Positions 1,049-15,360 of a stretch of 21,994 bases of DNA are shown here, piece after piece (the stretch's first letter is position 1; each line of letters opens with the position of its first letter). Source of the stretch: a virus; the IMG/VR virus record IMGVR_UViG_3300037521_000067, positions 1 to 21,994 of that record, one strand, 5' to 3'. Below the pieces are notes generated by a model, which saw nothing but the letters and a program-made list of their open reading frames with translations, was not told where the DNA came from and made no database searches. A program made the translations under genes and the position numbers.

Positions 1049-3433
1049 ATGGCTAATTCAACTATTCCCAATCTCGTTGCCGTCACAGTTCCTGCGGGGA
1101 CAGATCTCCTTGGAGTTCGCCAGAGTGGCGATGCACGAGACAAGAAACTAACGGTTACACAACTTCTCTCCCTTGGAGGCGACGTATTCAAGGTAGGAAC
1201 TCCGTCCGCTGGCTTATTCGGTGTATGGACTGGTGATGGAACAATTGAAGCCGTATCAGAGGTAACTCTCGGTGGTGGTGTTCTGGTCCTCAATCCTGGC
1301 ACAGAGACTCGCGTGACCGGCGATCTAAGATTGCTTACTGGCTCCGGTCAGGCACCGATGCTCGTAGACGAATTGTCAACCGAAACAAATCCAACAATAT
1401 GTCCAGCGTTTGCCGATCAGAACACAGGTCTAGGTTGGATTGGTGGCGATAGACTTTCGATAATTTCGGGTGGTGTGTCTGGACTGGTTCTAGCTGAACT
1501 AAATGGCGCAGTCATTCCTAGGTATGATACCGAACCAGCCATGACTGCATTCGCAGGCGGCGGACAAGTAAGCGCAGTACAACTTGATCACGGATACAAT
1601 GTCGTAGCAACTGTTGCGACTACCGGCGATTCGGTAAAACTTCCAATAGGTATAGTTTTCTTACAAGGTTCTGTCGTTTACATCAAGAACGACGGCGTGA
1701 ATGCTTGCGACGTATTTCCGGGATCAGGCGACAATCTTGGTGCCGGAGTAGATACAGCCATCTCGCTTGCAGCGGGAGCGTCAGTGGCATTCATCGGAAA
1801 AACTGCTGACTCAATTTGGACTCAACTGATCTTCGCGGCTGGAGGAGGCGGAGGAGACGTCACGAAAGTTGGCACTCCTGTCGATAATCAGATCGGTGTC
1901 TGGACAGGTGATGGCACCATCGAAGGCGACTCTGAATTCTTATGGGATGGAAGTGCGCTCACTGTAGGCTTCGTCAACGCTGGTCCGCAGTTGCTGAACG
2001 AGGTAGCTACAGATACCAATCCCACGATTGTTCCTACCCGAAATGATCCTGATACTGGTATAGGACATGATGCCGCAGATAGATTCGCACTCATAGCGGG
2101 TGGAGTTACCGTTGCGCACGTTCTGGAACAGACCGGGTCTCCGGCAATCGTCATTGACCCGAATGATGCTGGATCAGGTGCGCCCGAATTGGCTTTCGGC
2201 GCGGGCGCTGATACTGGCTGGCGTGAGTCTGCCAACGTACTGACTCTTATTCTTGGAGGAGCATCTAAGTGGGGCTGGGATGGCGATCTCTATGTATCAA
2301 TAACTGCGACAGGCGCAGGTCTGTTGAACGAAGCGGCGTCTGCTACTAATCCGACATTCGTTCCGAATCGCAGCGACCTCGACTCAGGCATCGGGCAGAA
2401 CGCAGTGGATCAAGTCTCGATCATCGCTGGTGGAGACGAGATAGCCAGAGCGGTAGAAGTTGTCGGAGCGAATCAGCTCATCCTATCTCCCGCAGGGATT
2501 CAAGATAACGCGGCAGCACCTTCGCTCGCGTTCGGTGACGGCGACTCTGGCTTTTACGAGTCATTCGAAGACACGATCAGATTAACACTCAGCGGAGTAG
2601 CTCGGTGGGTATTCACGGGAGATCGTTTTGTCGCACACACAGGAAACGGTCCTAGCCTACAGAACGAAGCGTCCCTTCACACTAATCCAACTTTGATTCC
2701 GGCTCTAGGTGATCCAAGCACAGGAATCGGTGGCGTTACTGGTGACATCTCGCTGATCGTAGGTAGCGTTGAAAAACTGCGCATCACCAGTTCAGTACAC
2801 ATATTCACGGGAGATTGGCAAGCGTCGATTACTGCTGGCCCTATCATAGTTGATGAGGCTGCGACCGGAACAAATCCGACACTGGTTCCACGCCGAGGTG
2901 ATGAAGACACAGGAGTAGGTTCTCTCGGTCTCGATACGCTTTCACTCATCGCTGGTGGCGTTGAGATGCTACGTTTATCAGAAGGCACGACCGACCAAGT
3001 TCTCATCGGTCCGGCTGGCACTGCTGCGGCTCCTTCTTTTTCATTCGTAGTTGACCCGGATACTGGATTCTATTCTGCTGTCCCCGGCATTCTTGCGATA
3101 TCAGTTGACGGCATAGGTAGATTTCGGTGGGTAGGTGATCAGTTTCGTGGAGCAACAGGCGGCAGTCCTTCGATACAGAATGAAGTGGCATCTGCAACAA
3201 ATCCAACACTGCTGCCAACTCAGACTGATCTCGATACAGGGATAGGCTGGACAGCTACTGATCACTTATCACTCGTTGCTGGTGGTCTTGATTGTATAAA
3301 CATAAGAGAGACAGCGAGCGCTCGACAAATAGGTTTCTATACGACTGCTCCAATTTCACTACAGACCGGAGTTGCTGTCACCGAAATTGCAATTCACGCG
3401 GCTCTGGTCGCACTTGGATTAATCACGGCATAG
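1049..3433 (+). CDS. modular repeat-built tail fibre-like protein (794 aa)
   Basis: The start ATG follows GAGG at 1037-1040. Residues 1-44 (TIPNLVAVTVPAGTDLLGVRQ) match the 'I-x-x-L ... D/E-L ... Q-x-G ... T-V' leader seen on many phage fibre-type proteins, and the 1207-residue protein downstream starts the same way. Two copies of a DVxKVGTP...VWTGDGTIE module lie at residues 45-76 and 270-301. A domain at about 176-263 (VYIKNDGVNACDVFPGSG, then a Gly-Ala-rich strand segment) also recurs near the C-terminus of the 1207-residue protein. The rest is at least nine copies of a roughly 40-residue repeat of two related forms: NEAASATNPTxxPxxxDxDTGIG...LSLIAGGVE and AxPSLAFGDGDTGFYE. The ending (IAIHAALVALGLITA) is hydrophobic. 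No enzyme motif is visible. Fibre or receptor-contact function is inferred from this repeat architecture. Confidence 0.7.
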   Translation: MANSTIPNLVAVTVPAGTDLLGVRQSGDARDKKLTVTQLLSLGGDVFKVGTPSAGLFGVWTGDGTIEAVSEVTLGGGVLVLNPGTETRVTGDLRLLTGSGQAPMLVDELSTETNPTICPAFADQNTGLGWIGGDRLSIISGGVSGLVLAELNGAVIPRYDTEPAMTAFAGGGQVSAVQLDHGYNVVATVATTGDSVKLPIGIVFLQGSVVYIKNDGVNACDVFPGSGDNLGAGVDTAISLAAGASVAFIGKTADSIWTQLIFAAGGGGGDVTKVGTPVDNQIGVWTGDGTIEGDSEFLWDGSALTVGFVNAGPQLLNEVATDTNPTIVPTRNDPDTGIGHDAADRFALIAGGVTVAHVLEQTGSPAIVIDPNDAGSGAPELAFGAGADTGWRESANVLTLILGGASKWGWDGDLYVSITATGAGLLNEAASATNPTFVPNRSDLDSGIGQNAVDQVSIIAGGDEIARAVEVVGANQLILSPAGIQDNAAAPSLAFGDGDSGFYESFEDTIRLTLSGVARWVFTGDRFVAHTGNGPSLQNEASLHTNPTLIPALGDPSTGIGGVTGDISLIVGSVEKLRITSSVHIFTGDWQASITAGPIIVDEAATGTNPTLVPRRGDEDTGVGSLGLDTLSLIAGGVEMLRLSEGTTDQVLIGPAGTAAAPSFSFVVDPDTGFYSAVPGILAISVDGIGRFRWVGDQFRGATGGSPSIQNEVASATNPTLLPTQTDLDTGIGWTATDHLSLVAGGLDCINIRETASARQIGFYTTAPISLQTGVAVTEIAIHAALVALGLITA
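1181..1276 (+). repeat. GDGTIE module copy 1 (divergent)
   Basis: This encodes residues 45-76 of the 794-residue protein: DVFKVGTP, a divergent middle (SAGLFG instead of VDNQIG), then VWTGDGTIE. It is the most divergent of five copies in the window and lies directly after the N-terminal leader. Confidence 0.7.
1856..1951 (+). repeat. GDGTIE module copy 2
   Basis: This encodes residues 270-301 of the 794-residue protein (DVTKVGTPVDNQIGVWTGDG, then TIEGDSEFLWDG). It follows a five-glycine linker, as do other copies, and is followed by the TGIG-type repeats. Confidence 0.85.
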
Positions 3434-5495: not shown

Positions 5496-8400
5496 ATGGC
5501 AGGCATAAAGATTTCTGATCTACCTCCTAACACTCTTCCGCTCGTCGGAGATGAGCAGCTGGAGCTACAAAACGCGGATGGCGATAGCACGAGAGCGACG
5601 GTAGATGACGTCGCTGCTGCTGCTGCTGGTTTAGACGCGACGTTCGTCACTGTTACTGCGAACGCGCAACTGCCGAATGAACGGATACTGACTGAGGGAG
5701 CCGGTATCTCTATCGTAGATAACGGGGCTGGCAATTCAATCGTGGTTTCAGCAACGAGCGGAGGTCTCTCTGGACTTGGGGAGTGGAGATCTCGTACAGA
5801 GACGGTTAGTCCTCCTGCCAGTGGGCAGATAAGGTTCAACAATGCTGATCCCGAACTGGCAACTGAACTATACATTGCTGAGACGAATGATGGTGGCACC
5901 GATGTAGAAACTTTCCTCGCTCTGGCAGGTGTAGGTTCGCTCATCTATATACAGGAGAAGTCGGATTCTTCTAACTTTATTCTTGTTGAGGTTGCAACCA
6001 ACGTTGACAGTGGAACTTTTAGAACAATCGGCATTGCCAACATAGTTCAGCAGGGATCACCGCTTTCTCAGAACACTCGCGTCATTCTTGTTATCAATGT
6101 CGTCGGAAGTGGAGCCGGAGATGTATTCAAAGTCGGCACTCCGGTCGATGATCAGATTGGTGTTTGGACCGGCGACGGTACGATTGAAGGCGACTCAGAA
6201 TTCCTCTACGACGGTTTTAATGTATTCGTACCGAGTATCACTTTGGGTGGCGCTTCAGGCACTGTGTCCATCAGAGAGACGGTTGCCGATACTCTAGCGT
6301 GGAGGATGTCTGGATTTGATAAATGGCGAATGAATTCCGATGCCTTCTTTTCTGCAGCCAGCGATGGCGCGCAGATGAATTTCACAGGAGCAAGCCTCAC
6401 AGATCCAACCCTGCTCCCCCGATCTGGTGATCTGGACACAGGAATTGGTTCAGCGTCCAACGACGATCTATCAATTATTGCCGGTGGACTTACAGCCATC
6501 AGAGTCAGCGAAGGACTTGGCGTCATAACGATGTTACTGGGAGGTGATACCGCAGGAACTGTCGCGAATGCGTTTGGCTTAATCAATGAAACCGCAAGCG
6601 CGACGAACCCTACGCTCCTTCCCAACAGGGCCGAGGATGACACTGGCATTGGACAGAACGCAAGCGGCGAAGTCTCCATCATCGGTGGCGGAGTTGAACT
6701 GGCAAGAGCGGTCGTCGCTGCTTCTGGTGGATTGCTGGCGAATAACTTGGCGACAGGTGCGGGTCTTGAACGTGTACTGACGACAGCCGACCTTTCTGGT
6801 GGTGGTGGAGACGTCTTCAAAGTTGGAACTCCTGTCGACAATCAGGTCGGCGTGTGGACAGGCGATGGCACTATCGAAGGTGATGTAAATTTCCTGTGGG
6901 ATGGGACGATGCTCAGTATATTGAGTGCGGCTGGTGTTATAGGACTTGATTTCTTCTCAGATGGGGCTAGTGGTAACTTTCGTACTCAAGGATCAAATAT
7001 ATCACGATGGATTATGAGCGGATGGGCCGCAGGCGGACCCAACATATATCTGAACTCTACGGGCGGCACAAACGGTCTTAGTATCCATGCTGGAGCGGGT
7101 ACGGGTCAGCATAATGTACATTTTTCAAACGCAGGTGGAGGCGCGGCACGGCTTGAAATAGGAGCAGATCCTTTTGATGGAACGAGCGGAGCATCAGTAG
7201 ATTTTGGGCGAAGAACGGACACCCTTTCGGGCCTAGAACTTCGTCTGTTCCGAGGAGATGATTCAGTAATTGACGAAATTACTTTAGGAGGTACTCTTAC
7301 AATTGCTCCTGGCATACACATTAAAGCCGGTATGCCGCTAGTTATCGACGCGCTCTCAGGCGGAGGCAAATTTGATTCTAGCCATGATAATGTAGATTTC
7401 AATACGGTCTTCACAACTACGACTGATTGGAATATCACAGGTTTGTCTGGTCGCATCCTACAGGGCGCGGAGACTCTGGCATTCGTGTCAGAGATAGGCG
7501 GAGGCATCACAATCGAAGATGAGGGTGTGCCTCTTGTCACGGTAGCAGACACTCTGGATTTTGTCGGCGCGGGCGTGACTGCAACCGGAGCCGGTGGCAC
7601 CAAGACAATCACCATTCCCGGTGGTGGCGGAGGTGATGTAACGAAGGTCGGCACTCCGGTTGATAATCAAGTTGGCGTTTGGACTGGAGACGGTACTATC
7701 GAGGGGACTACAGGACTCACATACGATGGGTCCGTTCTTGAAGTTGCTGGGACAATACAAGTTTCAAATGCAGCCGGTTCTGCAATGCTGGACGAGGCTG
7801 CGACCAGCACTAATCCGACGTTGGTTCCGAATCGTGCCGATCCTGATACCGGCATCAGTGGTAATGGAGTTGATCAACTCTTTCTCGTTGCTGGTGCAGT
7901 TCAGATGCTCCGAGCCACGGAAGTTCCCGGCGCAAGACAAATCATCATCACTCCCGGCATCATAGATAACAATCCAGCACTTCCAGCACTGGCATTCGGT
8001 GATGGAGACACAGGTATATATGAAACCTTTGATGATACGTTATCTATAAGTTGTTTGGGTGCTGCCGTAGCAGAATTTAATACGAACTTCGTTATAAAAA
8101 TGCATCAGGATGTCTTATCTAATAATGGAGTTGGACTTGCAAAGATAGCTGCGACCTCAACTATTCCAAATATACTTCCTAATGTTCAGGACGAAGATTC
8201 GGGTATAGGCTGGACTGCGGCCGACGCTCTATCAGTCATCGCTGGTGGCGTTGAAGGTCTTCGTCTCACAGAAGCTTCCAGTCGAATCATCCAGACCAAT
8301 GCGAACCACGTTGGCTTGACTGCCAGTGTCACGCAGACTCAAGTCGGCGGACTTGCGCTGCTCAGTTCTTACAATGAGATTGCGACGGTCGCCAACTCCG

Positions 8401-9119
8401 GCGATGCGCTGACTGCGTTCGAAGTGGCGGAGGGTGCGCGTCTCGTCGTTGTCAACAACGGAGCCAATGATCTTCAACTCTTCCCGGCTTCCGGTGACGA
8501 CATAGGAGCGGGGACTGACGCATCGATCACGATTGCCGCCGGAGCCATCGGCGTGTTCCTCGGTCGGACTGCCGCCATCTGGGACACACTCTACAATGCA
8601 ATCTCCAGTCCCACTTCGGTTGAACTGCCTGAGTTCCAGTTCTTCGCGGACCAGCTTGAGAATCCTAACAACGCAGACTGGACGGTCAATGCGCTCGCGC
8701 CTGCATCGGCGGATAGCAACAACGCAGGACTGACGGTAAGACTGTTCGATGACACGGTAGAAGAAGGCGTCGGTTTCACTATCGAAGTTCCGTCAGGTGC
8801 CACGAACATTGTCTTCGATTTCGTGGCGCGAGCGGAGACTGCGCCCGGAGTTGTGAACACCGTCGGTCTTGACATATACAACAGAGGCATTCCGGACAAC
8901 GCGGCAGTCCAGGCGTGGAGTGTGGCAACGGCGCTCACGGACATCGACATACCGACCAACGAGTTCTTCCAAGAGGACACGCAGTCCGTGGCTCTTGCGA
9001 CTCTCGGCGTAACGGCAGGAGAGACCACTCAGTTTGAGTTGGTCCGCACACTCCCCGGAGGAGGAACAGATTTGACGGGCGACTGGGATTTACTGCTGAT
9101 GAAAGTGAGCTTCACCTGA
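5496..9119 (+). CDS. large modular tail fibre-like protein (1207 aa)
   Basis: GGGAG at 5484-5488 serves the ATG. Residues 1-85 begin MAGIKISDLPPNTLPLVGDE, the leader type typical of phage fibre proteins. Three copies of the DVxKVGTP...GDGTIE module occur at 209-240, 439-470 and 714-745, each after a Gly-rich linker. Between and after them are at least five TGIG/TGIY repeats. The segment AASGGLLANN...ERVLTTADL (about 410-432) is a fibre motif that also ends the gene at 13030. Residues about 937-1033 hold the NNGANDLQLFPASG domain shared with the 794-residue protein. Residues about 1037-1207 form a compact beta-rich C-terminal domain (QLENPNNADW, FDDTVEEGVGF, LDIYNRGIPDN, GDWDLLLMKVSF) that looks like a receptor-facing or trimer-closing jelly roll. 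Base composition changes sharply before this domain. No enzyme motif is visible. Confidence 0.72.
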   Translation: MAGIKISDLPPNTLPLVGDEQLELQNADGDSTRATVDDVAAAAAGLDATFVTVTANAQLPNERILTEGAGISIVDNGAGNSIVVSATSGGLSGLGEWRSRTETVSPPASGQIRFNNADPELATELYIAETNDGGTDVETFLALAGVGSLIYIQEKSDSSNFILVEVATNVDSGTFRTIGIANIVQQGSPLSQNTRVILVINVVGSGAGDVFKVGTPVDDQIGVWTGDGTIEGDSEFLYDGFNVFVPSITLGGASGTVSIRETVADTLAWRMSGFDKWRMNSDAFFSAASDGAQMNFTGASLTDPTLLPRSGDLDTGIGSASNDDLSIIAGGLTAIRVSEGLGVITMLLGGDTAGTVANAFGLINETASATNPTLLPNRAEDDTGIGQNASGEVSIIGGGVELARAVVAASGGLLANNLATGAGLERVLTTADLSGGGGDVFKVGTPVDNQVGVWTGDGTIEGDVNFLWDGTMLSILSAAGVIGLDFFSDGASGNFRTQGSNISRWIMSGWAAGGPNIYLNSTGGTNGLSIHAGAGTGQHNVHFSNAGGGAARLEIGADPFDGTSGASVDFGRRTDTLSGLELRLFRGDDSVIDEITLGGTLTIAPGIHIKAGMPLVIDALSGGGKFDSSHDNVDFNTVFTTTTDWNITGLSGRILQGAETLAFVSEIGGGITIEDEGVPLVTVADTLDFVGAGVTATGAGGTKTITIPGGGGGDVTKVGTPVDNQVGVWTGDGTIEGTTGLTYDGSVLEVAGTIQVSNAAGSAMLDEAATSTNPTLVPNRADPDTGISGNGVDQLFLVAGAVQMLRATEVPGARQIIITPGIIDNNPALPALAFGDGDTGIYETFDDTLSISCLGAAVAEFNTNFVIKMHQDVLSNNGVGLAKIAATSTIPNILPNVQDEDSGIGWTAADALSVIAGGVEGLRLTEASSRIIQTNANHVGLTASVTQTQVGGLALLSSYNEIATVANSGDALTAFEVAEGARLVVVNNGANDLQLFPASGDDIGAGTDASITIAAGAIGVFLGRTAAIWDTLYNAISSPTSVELPEFQFFADQLENPNNADWTVNALAPASADSNNAGLTVRLFDDTVEEGVGFTIEVPSGATNIVFDFVARAETAPGVVNTVGLDIYNRGIPDNAAVQAWSVATALTDIDIPTNEFFQEDTQSVALATLGVTAGETTQFELVRTLPGGGTDLTGDWDLLLMKVSFT
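6120..6215 (+). repeat. GDGTIE module copy 3
   Basis: This encodes residues 209-240 of the 1207-residue protein: DVFKVGTPVDDQIGVWTGDG followed by TIEGDSEFLYDG. It is almost identical in protein to copy 2 in the other fibre gene but uses different codons at many positions. Confidence 0.85.
6810..6905 (+). repeat. GDGTIE module copy 4
   Basis: This encodes residues 439-470: DVFKVGTPVDNQVGVWTGDG, then TIEGDVNFLWDG. Over the 21 codons 6819-6881 the protein is identical to copy 5, yet 15 of the 21 codons differ. Confidence 0.85.
7635..7730 (+). repeat. GDGTIE module copy 5
   Basis: This encodes residues 714-745: DVTKVGTPVDNQVGVWTGDG, then TIEGTTGLTYDG. It follows a five-glycine linker. The N-terminal 23 residues match copies 2 and 4; the tail of the module diverges. 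Confidence 0.85.
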
Positions 9120-9823
9120 TGGCTGTTCGTACTAATGACGTTGACGGATCAACCTTTTCGTTTCTGAATACAGCGGACCAGTTTACGCAAGATCCGTTCT
9201 CAGCGATGGTGTGGTTCAATCTTTATTCTGGTGACAGTAATCCACAAAACCGTACAATCATTACTGTGTGGGACAATCCCACCAGCAAGTCATGGTTCTT
9301 AAAGCCTGACACCGGAGGAGCGCTTACGCTACGTTCTGGGATGTCATTTGATGGTTCAGCGAGTGTCACGCTGGTAGCGACCGCAGGACTTCTTTCGCTC
9401 GATACATGGTTTCACGGAGGCATAGATTTTGATGGCACCGACCTGCACATCTGGTTGAATGGAGTATTAGAAGCAACATTAAATGATCCCGGTACAATAT
9501 TTGATGATGCTGAGGACTTTGGAATCGGTGGCACTAGCGACGGTGGCAATACACAAGATGTTGATACGGCAGACGTGCGATATTACGACAGGATTTTATC
9601 AGCGGAGGAGTGGCTGACCATCTTCACTGCGCGAGGTCACGACGGAATTGTTGAGGGACTTTTACTCCGACCACTTTTGAATGACAGGGAGTCTGGCATT
9701 CTCGTGACTACGAAGAACCCCATTGACGCAGGACCATTGCAAATTGCTTACGCTGATGAAGACGGTGCGCCTGTCCCAGAGTATGTAGAAGATGGCGGAT
9801 TCAGTTTTAGAAGGAGGGTATAG
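9119..9823 (+). CDS. LamG/concanavalin A-like lectin domain protein (234 aa)
   Basis: The ATG overlaps the previous TGA (TGATG), so it is coupled to the fibre gene. The sequence follows the laminin-G/concanavalin A-like order: FSAMVWFNLYSG (first strand pair), RTIITVWDN, LTLRSGMSF, then LDTWFHGGIDFDGTDLHIWL with NGVLEATL (the 'W-x-H-x-x-x-x-x-D-G-x-x-x-x-x-x-N-G' signature near residues 96-120), IGGTSDGG, and VRYYDRILSAEEW near residues 150-165, which is the usual closing strand of such domains. The last 70 residues are a separate tail. Single-domain LamG proteins next to fibre genes are common in environmental phages and are thought to contact surface glycans; that role is inference here. 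No hydrolase catalytic residues are evident. Confidence 0.75.
   Translation: MAVRTNDVDGSTFSFLNTADQFTQDPFSAMVWFNLYSGDSNPQNRTIITVWDNPTSKSWFLKPDTGGALTLRSGMSFDGSASVTLVATAGLLSLDTWFHGGIDFDGTDLHIWLNGVLEATLNDPGTIFDDAEDFGIGGTSDGGNTQDVDTADVRYYDRILSAEEWLTIFTARGHDGIVEGLLLRPLLNDRESGILVTTKNPIDAGPLQIAYADEDGAPVPEYVEDGGFSFRRRV
9811..9817 (+). promoter_or_regulatory. strong ribosome binding site for a GTG start
   Basis: AAGGAGG, a near-perfect Shine-Dalgarno sequence, lies eight bases before GTG 9826 and inside the last codons of the lectin gene. It supports GTG as the true start of the next gene. Confidence 0.75.
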
Positions 9824-10521: not shown

Positions 10522-10905
10522 ATGACGAAGGTCACGAAAGAAGTAATCAAGGAACGCGGACTTCGCATAGGGCTCAATCAGATTGTGACCTACGCAACTC
10601 TCGTTCCTATCTTCTGGTTCATCGTTCAGCCTCTTCTTGTGAACGCACTGGCTGAAGAGATGCAGGAGTCGATCAAGCAGACGGTACAGCAAGAGATCAA
10701 GCCGATCAACGCGGCTTTCGTGGCCCTTCTTCAAACTAATATCGCGAACACTCGACGGAAGATTGCGAGGTTGGAGTTCAAGCGTGATCAGCCACCGAAT
10801 GGAGACTGGACATCGCAAGATGCTGAAGACATGGTGAACCTCCAACTGGAGTTGGCGAGTAGCGAGTCTGCGCTGACTGCTCTAACTACTACGAGTACGA
10901 GTTGA
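10522..10905 (+). CDS. single-pass membrane protein with coiled coil (127 aa), spanin or holin-type candidate
   Basis: The start is taken at ATG 10522 rather than an upstream in-frame ATG at 10492, because GGAG at 10511-10514 fits it and it directly follows the previous stop. A basic N-terminus (TKVTKEVIKERGLR) precedes one clear membrane segment at about residues 20-43 (TYATLVPIFWFIVQPLLVNA). The rest, about 80 residues, is charged and helical with coiled-coil-like spacing (EEMQESIKQTVQQEIK, NTRRKIARLEFKRDQ). This shape (N-in, one TM, helical exterior) would fit an inner-membrane spanin subunit partnered with the lipoprotein at 11590, or another lysis helper. There is no sequence motif to prove it. 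It overlaps the next gene by one base (TGATG). Confidence 0.55.
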   Translation: MTKVTKEVIKERGLRIGLNQIVTYATLVPIFWFIVQPLLVNALAEEMQESIKQTVQQEIKPINAAFVALLQTNIANTRRKIARLEFKRDQPPNGDWTSQDAEDMVNLQLELASSESALTALTTTSTS

Positions 10906-11363
10906 TGGAACTTTTACTGAAACGATTCTCTGGTGCTGACGAGTCTACTCTCGGACTGGTCTTTGTTGAAGAAAGATTCTTCTGCTATTCCCTGGAAGAT
11001 CAGTTCAATGAGCCCAAGATTCCAGGAGAGACTCGCATTCCTGCAGGACGGTATCAGATCATTCTTCGGAATGAAGGTGGCATGGTCACACGGTACAAGA
11101 AACGATTCAGTTGGCATAGCGGAATGCTCTGGCTCCAAAACGTCCCAGGGTTTCGGTTTATCTATCTTCACGTTGGCAATAAGGACGACGACTCTGAGGG
11201 GTGCATCCTTGTTGGTGATGGTCAGGTTCAGAATGTGACTGAGCGTGGTCAGGTGACCAGTTCAGTCGCAGGATACAGACGATTGTACGAAATTATCACT
11301 GAAGCATTGCTCAGTGAAGAAGTGTGGATCGAAATATTTGACGAAGATGAGGAGATAACATGA
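10905..11363 (+). CDS. DUF5675-like protein, lysis enzyme candidate (152 aa)
   Basis: The start is ATG 10905, overlapping the previous stop as TGATG; a TTG one codon earlier is less likely. The sequence follows the DUF5675 pattern: STLGLVFVEERFFCYSLED near the start, IPGETRIPAGRYQI at 39-52, His71, LWLQNVPGF at 75-83, and the core FIYLHVGNKDDDSEGCILVG at 85-104 with His89, Gly91-Asn92, Asp96 and Gly99-Cys100. Family members are frequent in phage lysis regions and have no experimentally settled function that I know. The His...Ser/Asp-x-G-C layout recalls YkuD-type L,D-transpeptidase active sites, which suggests a peptidoglycan role; that is inference. The neighbouring holin and lipoprotein candidates support it. 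Confidence 0.75.
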   Translation: MELLLKRFSGADESTLGLVFVEERFFCYSLEDQFNEPKIPGETRIPAGRYQIILRNEGGMVTRYKKRFSWHSGMLWLQNVPGFRFIYLHVGNKDDDSEGCILVGDGQVQNVTERGQVTSSVAGYRRLYEIITEALLSEEVWIEIFDEDEEIT

Positions 11364-13029: not shown

Positions 13030-15360
13030 ATGGGATACAATGACGTCTTCGGCGGCGGATCAATCAACCCCGCACAGAGAACATACTTAGAACTGACGAT
13101 CAGCGCAGATGTTCAGCTACAGTGGCCGATTGAACAGCAGATCGGCGGCGACGATGTTGCGGTGGACATCATCGATGTCGATGCTACAGTCCCAGGACTC
13201 AATGTTGACTTTGATGATGCTCGTCAGGTGTCTACCGGATACACGACTCTATTCACTAACATCGGGGCTAACACCGTCACGATTAGAGATGCCGGAGGAG
13301 GTACGATCTTATCGCTGGATACTGGCGTATCGTTCTTCATCTACCTGACCGACAACAGTACCGAGGCCGGAGTGTGGAGAACGTTCCAACTTGGTTCGTT
13401 GATGACTGCGGCGAATGCAGCACTGCTCGCGGGAGCCGGTCTCAAGGCTATCAGTGCGACGCTGAACCAGACCATTCCGCCCACGATTGTGACGGTCACG
13501 CCGCTGGATATGACGGATGCGGACCGTGCGCAACTGAACATCTGGAACGCGGGCGTCGGTACGTTTAATCTGCCGAACCCTGGGACTGTCGGCTCTGACT
13601 GGTTCACGCACATAAGAAACGACGGATCCGGTGTGCTGACGGTGAATACTCCGGCTGGAGTTATTGACGACGGCGGAAGTTTGATGTTGAATCCGGGAGT
13701 GTCTGGTACATTCGTGACGGACGGAACGGATTGGTTCACGATTGGCCTGACATCATCCTTAGATACCGGGTTTGACTTCACCGAGATAGACGTCTCCGGT
13801 TCTGGCGACTTCGTGTTGTCCGGCGTCCAGCTTGATCGCGTGGCGTATCGGTTCATCGGATCGCTGACCGGCGATAGAAATATAATTGTTCCCAATACGA
13901 TTCAAGAATATTGGGTGGACAACAGCACGACGGGAGCGTTCTCTCTATTTGTTCAGGTAGCAGGACAAGCGATTCCCGTCGATATTCCGCAGGACAACAG
14001 AGCGATTCTGTACTGCGACGGAAGCGAGGTACTGGACGCGGAGTCTAGCGTCGTTACTTTCCCCATCACCATCAGTCAGGGTGGAACGGGAGCCACGACT
14101 GCTTCTCTAGCGCGAACGAATCTTGGCGTTCCTCCACTCACGCGGCTCGTTGACACTGGAGTTGGACTGACGGGCGGAGGTGATCTTAGTAGCGACAGAA
14201 CGCACGATCTTGACTACTCCGCTGTTCCAGTGGAAGTTATCGCGGCGGGAGACTTCGTAACGTTCCAGGATATTGACGATTCCGACGCTATAAAGAAGAC
14301 GACATTATCTACTGTGGTCGGCAGTATTTCTCAACTCGTTGACAGTGCGAGCAACGTTCGGGTCACGGCTGAACTTCTCGGCATTGCGCAACTACGAAGC
14401 GACGGCAACGCAGACGCGGAAGTTCGCTTGCTCGAGTTCGCGCACTCAGACGGTACTCCGAGAGCGCTGATCGGTCAGCCCACTGCTTCACTCCCCCTTA
14501 GAATTGCGAACCTCATGGCGGGCGGAGCTATCGAACTCACTTCTGGGGCGGCATCCAGTGTCACTCTCAATCCTGCCGGTACACTGCGACTAATCGCTTC
14601 ATCGTTAGCCGGTATCGTGGACGTATTCGCTGATGGCGCTACTGACACCGAGCAGCATCTTGTTCAACTCAAAGACTCTGGCGGGAATATCAAGGGCGAC
14701 TGGGGTTGGACTGCTGCGGAAGCGAAACTGCATCTAGCTAATAACATCAACGGACAAGAATTTGAACTTAGGGGATTCGATTTTGGCGGCAGTCCTCGAA
14801 CGTATCTCCTAGCTGATCCCGATGCTCTTACTATCTTACGAGCAGACACTGACCTCAGTCTTCAAGTTGCCAACGGCGAGATAGCCTTCTACGGTACAGC
14901 GAACGGCAAGTCAGCGATGTACTTCAACAATATTGAAACTACTCGCACGGTCGTCGCTGCGTCAGGTGGTCTTGAAGTTGACAATCAAGATACTGGCGTA
15001 GGATTCGAGCGAGTACTGACTACGGCAGATCTTGGAGGAGGCGGAGGTGCCGTCTTTACTGGATTCATACCAGCAAATGGAATTGGAGAAGTTGTGCCAG
15101 CCGGTTGGTCGGCGTCTAGAACTAGTCTGGGTGTTTACTCGGTAATCCACAATCTTGGTGTATCACCAACGACCGATCTTATTATCGTAGCGACGGCTAT
15201 AGGAACTTCCACTGGTCCCGCCGGAATGATTATAGCCGTGGTATTAAATCGGAATACTAACAATTTTATAGTCCAGATTGGTAATCCAGACATGGGTATC
15301 GGCGGCGGCGGAGGCAATGTAGATCGTGACTGGATGTTTATAGCGGTTGATAATTCATAA
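13030..15360 (+). CDS. tail fibre protein (776 aa)
   Basis: AAGGGAGG at 13016-13023 serves the ATG. The N-terminal 240 residues (MGYNDVFGGGSINPAQRTYL; LQWPIEQQIGG; FDDARQVSTGY; LFTNIGANTVTI; WRTFQLG; LAGAGLKAISATLNQT) form the conserved head of a fibre family common in environmental podoviruses, probably its virion-attachment end. Residues 348-366 carry the classical fibre motif ISQGGTGATT...RTNLG, followed by VGLTGGGDLSSDRTHDLDY. The middle is beta-rich. Residues near 640-675 hold AASGGLEVDN...ERVLTTADL and a Gly run, also found in the 1207-residue protein. The C-terminal 100 residues (AGWSASRTSLG..., TTDLIIVATAIG..., MFIAVDN) look like a small beta-rich tip domain. It binds the host surface by inference. 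Confidence 0.8.
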   Translation: MGYNDVFGGGSINPAQRTYLELTISADVQLQWPIEQQIGGDDVAVDIIDVDATVPGLNVDFDDARQVSTGYTTLFTNIGANTVTIRDAGGGTILSLDTGVSFFIYLTDNSTEAGVWRTFQLGSLMTAANAALLAGAGLKAISATLNQTIPPTIVTVTPLDMTDADRAQLNIWNAGVGTFNLPNPGTVGSDWFTHIRNDGSGVLTVNTPAGVIDDGGSLMLNPGVSGTFVTDGTDWFTIGLTSSLDTGFDFTEIDVSGSGDFVLSGVQLDRVAYRFIGSLTGDRNIIVPNTIQEYWVDNSTTGAFSLFVQVAGQAIPVDIPQDNRAILYCDGSEVLDAESSVVTFPITISQGGTGATTASLARTNLGVPPLTRLVDTGVGLTGGGDLSSDRTHDLDYSAVPVEVIAAGDFVTFQDIDDSDAIKKTTLSTVVGSISQLVDSASNVRVTAELLGIAQLRSDGNADAEVRLLEFAHSDGTPRALIGQPTASLPLRIANLMAGGAIELTSGAASSVTLNPAGTLRLIASSLAGIVDVFADGATDTEQHLVQLKDSGGNIKGDWGWTAAEAKLHLANNINGQEFELRGFDFGGSPRTYLLADPDALTILRADTDLSLQVANGEIAFYGTANGKSAMYFNNIETTRTVVAASGGLEVDNQDTGVGFERVLTTADLGGGGGAVFTGFIPANGIGEVVPAGWSASRTSLGVYSVIHNLGVSPTTDLIIVATAIGTSTGPAGMIIAVVLNRNTNNFIVQIGNPDMGIGGGGGNVDRDWMFIAVDNS

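Follow-up and report, generated by a model that had tools for sequence, protein, structure and literature searches.

A short peptide module, repeated five times in two fibre-like genes of a 21,994-base virus record (the whole of this stretch is referred to below as the window; the record gives neither host nor taxonomy), is probably a conserved protein joint of tail-fibre-like proteins, found in several host phyla, at which segments recombine. Selection maintains the amino acids of the module, whereas its codons vary freely and are saturated, and the same segments sit beside different partners on both sides of the module, in different genes and in different phages. The five copies in the window are better regarded as samples from a large pool of old module lineages than as in-place duplicates kept in this genome by selection. 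The features concerned are listed in Table 1.

Table 1. Fibre-like genes, module copies and adjoining segments (positions are those of the window)
Feature	Position	Strand	Description
Fibre-like gene A	1049..3433	+	794 aa; ORF; modules c1 and c2 and DTGIG-type repeats
Module c1	1178..1255	+	GDVFKVGTPSAGLFGVWTGDGTIEAV; most diverged copy; gene A
Module c2	1853..1930	+	GDVTKVGTPVDNQIGVWTGDGTIEGD; gene A; codons significantly close to c4
Fibre-like gene B	5496..9119	+	1207 aa; ORF; modules c3, c4 and c5
Module c3	6117..6194	+	GDVFKVGTPVDDQIGVWTGDGTIEGD; gene B
Segment between c3 and c4	6195..6806	+	homologue in L009 (54% aa identity), located in gene A there
Module c4	6807..6884	+	GDVFKVGTPVDNQVGVWTGDGTIEGD; gene B
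Segment between c4 and c5	6885..7505	+	82% aa identity to segment after first fibre-B module of L007
Upstream flank of c5	7499..7631	+	L007 homologue precedes module whose downstream side resembles c4
Module c5	7632..7709	+	GDVTKVGTPVDNQVGVWTGDGTIEGT; gene B; 15/21 core codons unlike c4
Segment after c5	7710..8023	+	together with c5, 90% nt identity to L008/L009 (window 7622-8023)

Across genes A and B, the module has the consensus GDVxKVGTPVDNQxGVWTGDGTIEG; strong conservation extends over ca. 26 residues (GDV to GTIEG), and a weaker tail reaches ca. residue 37. The poorer copy is c1, which has 19-21 of 32 residues in common with the other copies. Since a module profile recovered all five copies with scores of 48-77 bits, the repetition of the protein is not due to chance. 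Nine DTGIG-type repeats of ca. 39 residues lie alongside the modules in the two genes. Genes A and B are tentatively regarded as fibre genes from these repeats and from weak family matches: residues 656-693 of gene A matched a PHROG tail fibre family weakly (E 1e-4), and gene B gave tblastn matches, covering parts only, to annotated phage structural or hypothetical proteins. The segment of gene B preceding c4 (VVAASGGL...ERVLTTADL.GGGG, 6709-6817) recurs at 14940-15056 in a third long ORF (13030-15360), where no KVGTP module stands behind it. The ORF that follows gene B (9119-9823) contains a Laminin_G_3 (concanavalin-like lectin) domain (E 4e-11), and its product is possibly a glycan-binding virion protein. 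At 10902-11363 lies the gene of a DUF5675 protein (E 1e-25), which also matches Tlde1 below threshold and may act on peptidoglycan.

The first-pass annotation had noticed that the same 21 residues (KVGTPVDNQVGVWTGDGTIEG) are encoded by codons 6819-6881 (c4) and 7644-7706 (c5) although 15 of the 21 codons differ, all synonymously, and this was confirmed; one of the six codons in common is TGG, which has no synonym. It had also reported that Ser in the related NEAASATNPT repeats is encoded by TCT in one copy and AGC in another. Both codons are present (TCT at 2339-2341, AGC at 6597-6599), but the AGC copy reads NETASATNPT. The c4-c5 pair shows a dN of 0 and a pS of 0.96 over 21 codons (Nei-Gojobori); the pair is thus no fresh duplication, as had been argued. 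When random synonymous codons were drawn from the codon usage of genes A and B themselves, 12.8 of the 20 degenerate codons were expected to differ between c4 and c5, and 15 did (P(>=15) = 0.21). The codon difference between c4 and c5, the most diverged pair among the copies in the window, is no greater than chance.

The copies in the window are not uniformly saturated: between c2 in gene A and c4 in gene B, only 9 of 26 comparable codons differ as against 16.2 expected, a significant similarity (P(<=9) = 0.004, ca. 0.04 after ten tests). For c2-c4, dS is 0.69, and for c3-c5 and c2-c3 it is about 1.5-1.7; over 26 codons, seven of the ten copy pairs give no defined value once multiple changes are corrected for, and their sites are thus saturated. 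The DTGIG-type repeats gave the same picture as the modules, with 0.63 of the codons for shared residues differing versus 0.67 expected. No exact run longer than 8 bases is common to c4 and c5, and this could lower recombination between them passively.

Relatives of the module were collected by three module-centred scans of IMG/VR (best 80 matches of each) and one scan of GTDB genomes, which together gave 228 sequences including the window and 207 distinct module copies. The GTDB bearers are MAGs labelled as Gammaproteobacteria, Deltaproteobacteria, Bacteroidetes and candidate division WOR-3, and two isolate genomes, Muriicola jejuensis and Zeaxanthinibacter sp. In a sample of the Flavobacteriaceae, the family of Zeaxanthinibacter, the module was present in 2 of 299 genomes, both found before. 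Among annotated phages, the module matched only weakly, in Flavobacterium phages (E 0.2). No significant match to the module was obtained in Pfam, NCBIfam or PDB (a PDB profile search gave unrelated proteins at best, E 0.25), and PHROG gave one weak match, to a 'virion structural protein' family, in 1 of 73 members. A text search of the literature for the module peptide found no mention of it. Searches made by segment instead of by module returned 2 and 4 loci only, too few for module-free sampling; the segment between c4 and c5, searched alone, matched in L006 and L007 only.

Among the 207 distinct copies, codons at almost every column are chosen as if at random according to fibre codon usage. 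Where two copies have the same residue, the probability of their also having the same codon, compared with the expectation from codon usage, was 0.30 versus 0.29 at Gly1, 0.51 versus 0.51 at Lys5 and 0.28 versus 0.28 at Thr22, and the largest excess of codon sharing at any column was 0.07. Between contigs, 0.622 of comparable codons differ (0.646 expected). Within genes, the corresponding value for 71 pairs was 0.541 against 0.597, a ratio of 0.91, with z above 2 in 2.8% of the pairs and below -2 in 14%. By z, c4-c5 ranks third among these 71 pairs, which is what choosing a striking pair would yield. A homologous pair in L085 likewise shows many differences (20 of 24 codons, 15.1 expected). 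Conversely, copies within one gene of L033 (ORF at offset 3792) differ at only 5-6 of 22-24 codons, which indicates that recent duplications or conversions of the module occur in other phages. The per-column and pairwise results reveal no DNA word that is conserved and no surplus of divergence. The codon scrambling is ordinary saturation, with no indication that selection acts against identity of the repeats. These data, together with the dN and pS of c4-c5, bear out the earlier proposal that the protein is under purifying selection and its synonymous sites are saturated.

We also considered the module as a hotspot of synonymous change or of gene conversion, and this was rejected: continual conversion would leave the modules more codon-diverged than their flanks, yet in 14 ortholog pairs with homology on both sides, the codon identity of the module (0.65) did not differ significantly from that of the flanks (0.69; p = 0.39), so that ongoing gene conversion of modules is not demonstrated.

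The sequences beside the modules were compared over 20 residues on each side, flanks with at least 70% identity being taken as homologous and those with less than 35% identity and a low local alignment score as non-homologous. Homology was limited to the upstream flank in 74 module pairs and to the downstream flank in 155 (229 one-sided pairs), and extended to both flanks in 6; since the loci were fetched mostly through module similarity, the absolute number of module pairs with two unrelated flanks is inflated. Control stretches of 26 residues with at least 75% identity were taken from the same genes, at a distance of more than 50 residues from all modules, and sorted with the identity thresholds used for the flanks. 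Among clear flank-homologous cases, 95% were one-sided at modules as against 16% at the control stretches, a ratio of one-sided to two-sided cases that is less exposed to module-based sampling, though not immune to it. Furthermore, when protein homology was determined with the modules masked, internal ends of homology blocks were concentrated within 6 residues of a module edge: blocks started there 4.6 times and ended there 10.9 times more often than at random positions, while masked pseudo-modules gave enrichments of 1.5-2.6 times.

A clear case is provided by locus L007, which has ca. 84% identity to the window in the part concerned. Upstream of the first module in gene B of L007, 56 of 59 informative sites agree with c5 and 2 with c4; downstream, 71 of 83 agree with c4 and 5 with c5. 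Inside the module, the balance of c5 to c4 sites shifts from 4:3 through 1:4 to 1:6, and the best breakpoint lies between -10 and +8 nt from the module start. At least one crossover, in which either L007 or the window may be the recombinant, thus maps to the module edge. That copies come from separate lineages by recombination, a finding that the earlier annotation had placed against its own reading, is borne out in part by these flanks. In L008 and L009, c5 and the following sequence are 90% identical to the window over 402 nt, and the upstream flank is unrelated. In L099 (ORF at offset 4344), the modules at residues 449 and 574 share only 9 of 21 codons, although each follows a copy of the same 45-codon flank in which all 44 comparable codons agree. 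L006, which is near-identical to the window, and L008, which shares the c5 segment, have one metagenome number in common (3300038629), and exchange partners may therefore co-occur in one sample.

Based on these results, we propose that the module is a connector of 26 to 37 residues between interchangeable fibre segments. A crossover at the joint would give an in-frame protein that presumably still folds and assembles, so that the recombinant survives, and over time each genome would gather module copies from several old lineages; the same peptide would thereby appear within one gene with mostly different codons. The swapped segments may carry receptor-binding or length functions. An AlphaFold2 model of a 62-residue module fragment was weak (pLDDT 73, pTM 0.36) and contained short beta strands only, and a Foldseek search with it against PDB, uninformative given such a model, gave no significant fold match (best E 2.5). 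The joint as a physical element is thus something that we infer.

Crossovers could start at the weak homology of the modules with the help of a divergence-tolerant phage recombinase, or anywhere, and then be filtered by protein function. The second possibility, in which exchange is illegitimate, survival is limited to fusions at a structurally permissive joint and the homology of the modules does nothing to initiate crossovers, is a variant of our explanation that differs solely in how crossovers start. It deserves serious consideration, although we put it at somewhat below an even chance. The exact runs that module pairs have in common are short (median 10-11 nt, at 76-77% identity), and the L007 breakpoint lies at the module edge, not in its middle, as this possibility would have it. 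On the other hand, the module is intact and in register at the junctions listed, which a homology-guided crossover explains more simply, and relaxed phage recombinases are described as accepting 12% divergence at only a 100-fold cost (PMC3945230), although the modules are more diverged than this. A further proposal, that the module is a shared connector standard kept by unrelated phages of different bacterial phyla for the interchangeability of segments, with selection for exchange (evolvability) acting besides selection for the fold, appears doubtful.

If the copies had arisen by an old duplication within the genes and had remained in place under purifying selection, with no exchange between phages, the saturated pS with little or no dN would be accounted for, as would the two-sided orthologs, which diverge as their flanks do. 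This explanation is nonetheless improbable, since flanks switch across phages and between genes A and B, c2 and c4 are similar across genes, and the L007 chimera contradicts it. The first-pass annotation had suggested that codon scrambling may keep the copies from recombining with each other. In its strong form, that is, codon diversification itself selected so that DNA differences prevent recombination from deleting the segments between copies, this is very improbable and mostly refuted. The lack of exact runs above 8 bases between c4 and c5 and the L085 pair agree with it, but the 71 within-gene pairs fall below the random expectation instead of above it, low z values are more frequent than high ones, and the c2-c4 and L033 copies are too similar. 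Moreover, the suggested anti-recombination role is not supported, because the module is the very place where fibre segments are exchanged, including between the positions of c4 and c5. Nearly all of the data are metagenomic contigs and the module is repeated within genomes, so the one-sided homologies might be assembly chimeras. This can hardly be the case: only 7 of the 229 one-sided pairs have an exact in-register module run of 21 nt or more, the others being too short for k-mer joining; the same architectures occur in different metagenomes (L008/L009, L067/L071, L031/L032); and the module is also present in bacterial isolate genomes. Least credible of all is conservation of the module as a DNA recombination site (site-specific or hotspot) and not as protein, because, despite the concentration of junctions at the module, codons are random at almost every column so that a conserved DNA word is refuted, all copies lie on one strand in the same, direct orientation, and no recombinase was found among the larger ORFs of the window.

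The preferred explanation, a conserved joint between exchangeable segments, names a specific and apparently undescribed peptide at which environmental phages probably assemble mosaic fibres, and for which a difference from the control stretches was measured. With the module as a marker, otherwise unannotated fibre proteins of uncultivated viruses can be divided into units of exchange, and exchanges between phages of one sample can be traced. In addition, identical protein with scrambled codons among repeats need not imply selection on codons; the right yardstick is the expectation from codon usage, and by that measure c4-c5 is ordinary.

Among known systems, a diversity-generating retroelement target does not fit, as the differences between copies are synonymous in every codon family and leave the peptide unchanged; no reverse transcriptase was found by Pfam scans of 20 ORFs in the window, which is a fragment. 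The modules also do not resemble an invertible fibre cassette of the Cin/Min type, all of them being direct and in one reading direction, and the same scans revealed no recombinase in this fragment. Rad52-like phage recombinases perform relaxed homologous recombination, with 12% divergence costing ca. 100-fold (De Paepe et al. 2014, PMC3945230), and are plausible machinery for crossover in short diverged stretches. As far as the available part of that report goes, its tests concerned lambdoid phages and prophages at 12% divergence, unlike the modules, which differ by ca. 24% (median); this tolerance of diverged DNA makes a homology-guided crossover possible, though not proven at such divergence. 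In coliphages, receptor-binding domains are surrounded by conserved DNA motifs that have been put forward as recombination hotspots (PMC10408124). There, too, conserved stretches border exchanged receptor-binding segments, but those motifs are conserved DNA (63-81% average identity), whereas the module is conserved at the protein level with random codons. Domain mosaicism of receptor-binding proteins is general, as seen in 133,574 reference proteins (Smug et al. 2023, PMC10684548); fragments common to otherwise unrelated tail proteins across taxonomic boundaries are found there as here, whereas the module, unlike those domains, is a short joint with no significant match in Pfam, NCBIfam or PDB and occurs mostly in uncultivated viruses. 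A further parallel is that of the distal tail-fibre genes of T-even phages, in which recombination occurs between conserved motifs (Tetart, Desplats and Krisch 1998, as cited in PMC10408124 and PMC6027323). In both cases, variable segments of fibre genes are bordered by short conserved motifs, which serve as exchange joints: the module is found repeatedly in single fibre genes and across them (five copies in the window, 207 distinct ones in the loci collected), and different partners stand on its two sides in different phages. It appears to be another motif, in other phages, and the T-even exchange, as described in these sources, concerns adhesin specificity. Fibre exchange at conserved motifs is already known, and the module peptide itself is apparently an addition to it that had not been described.
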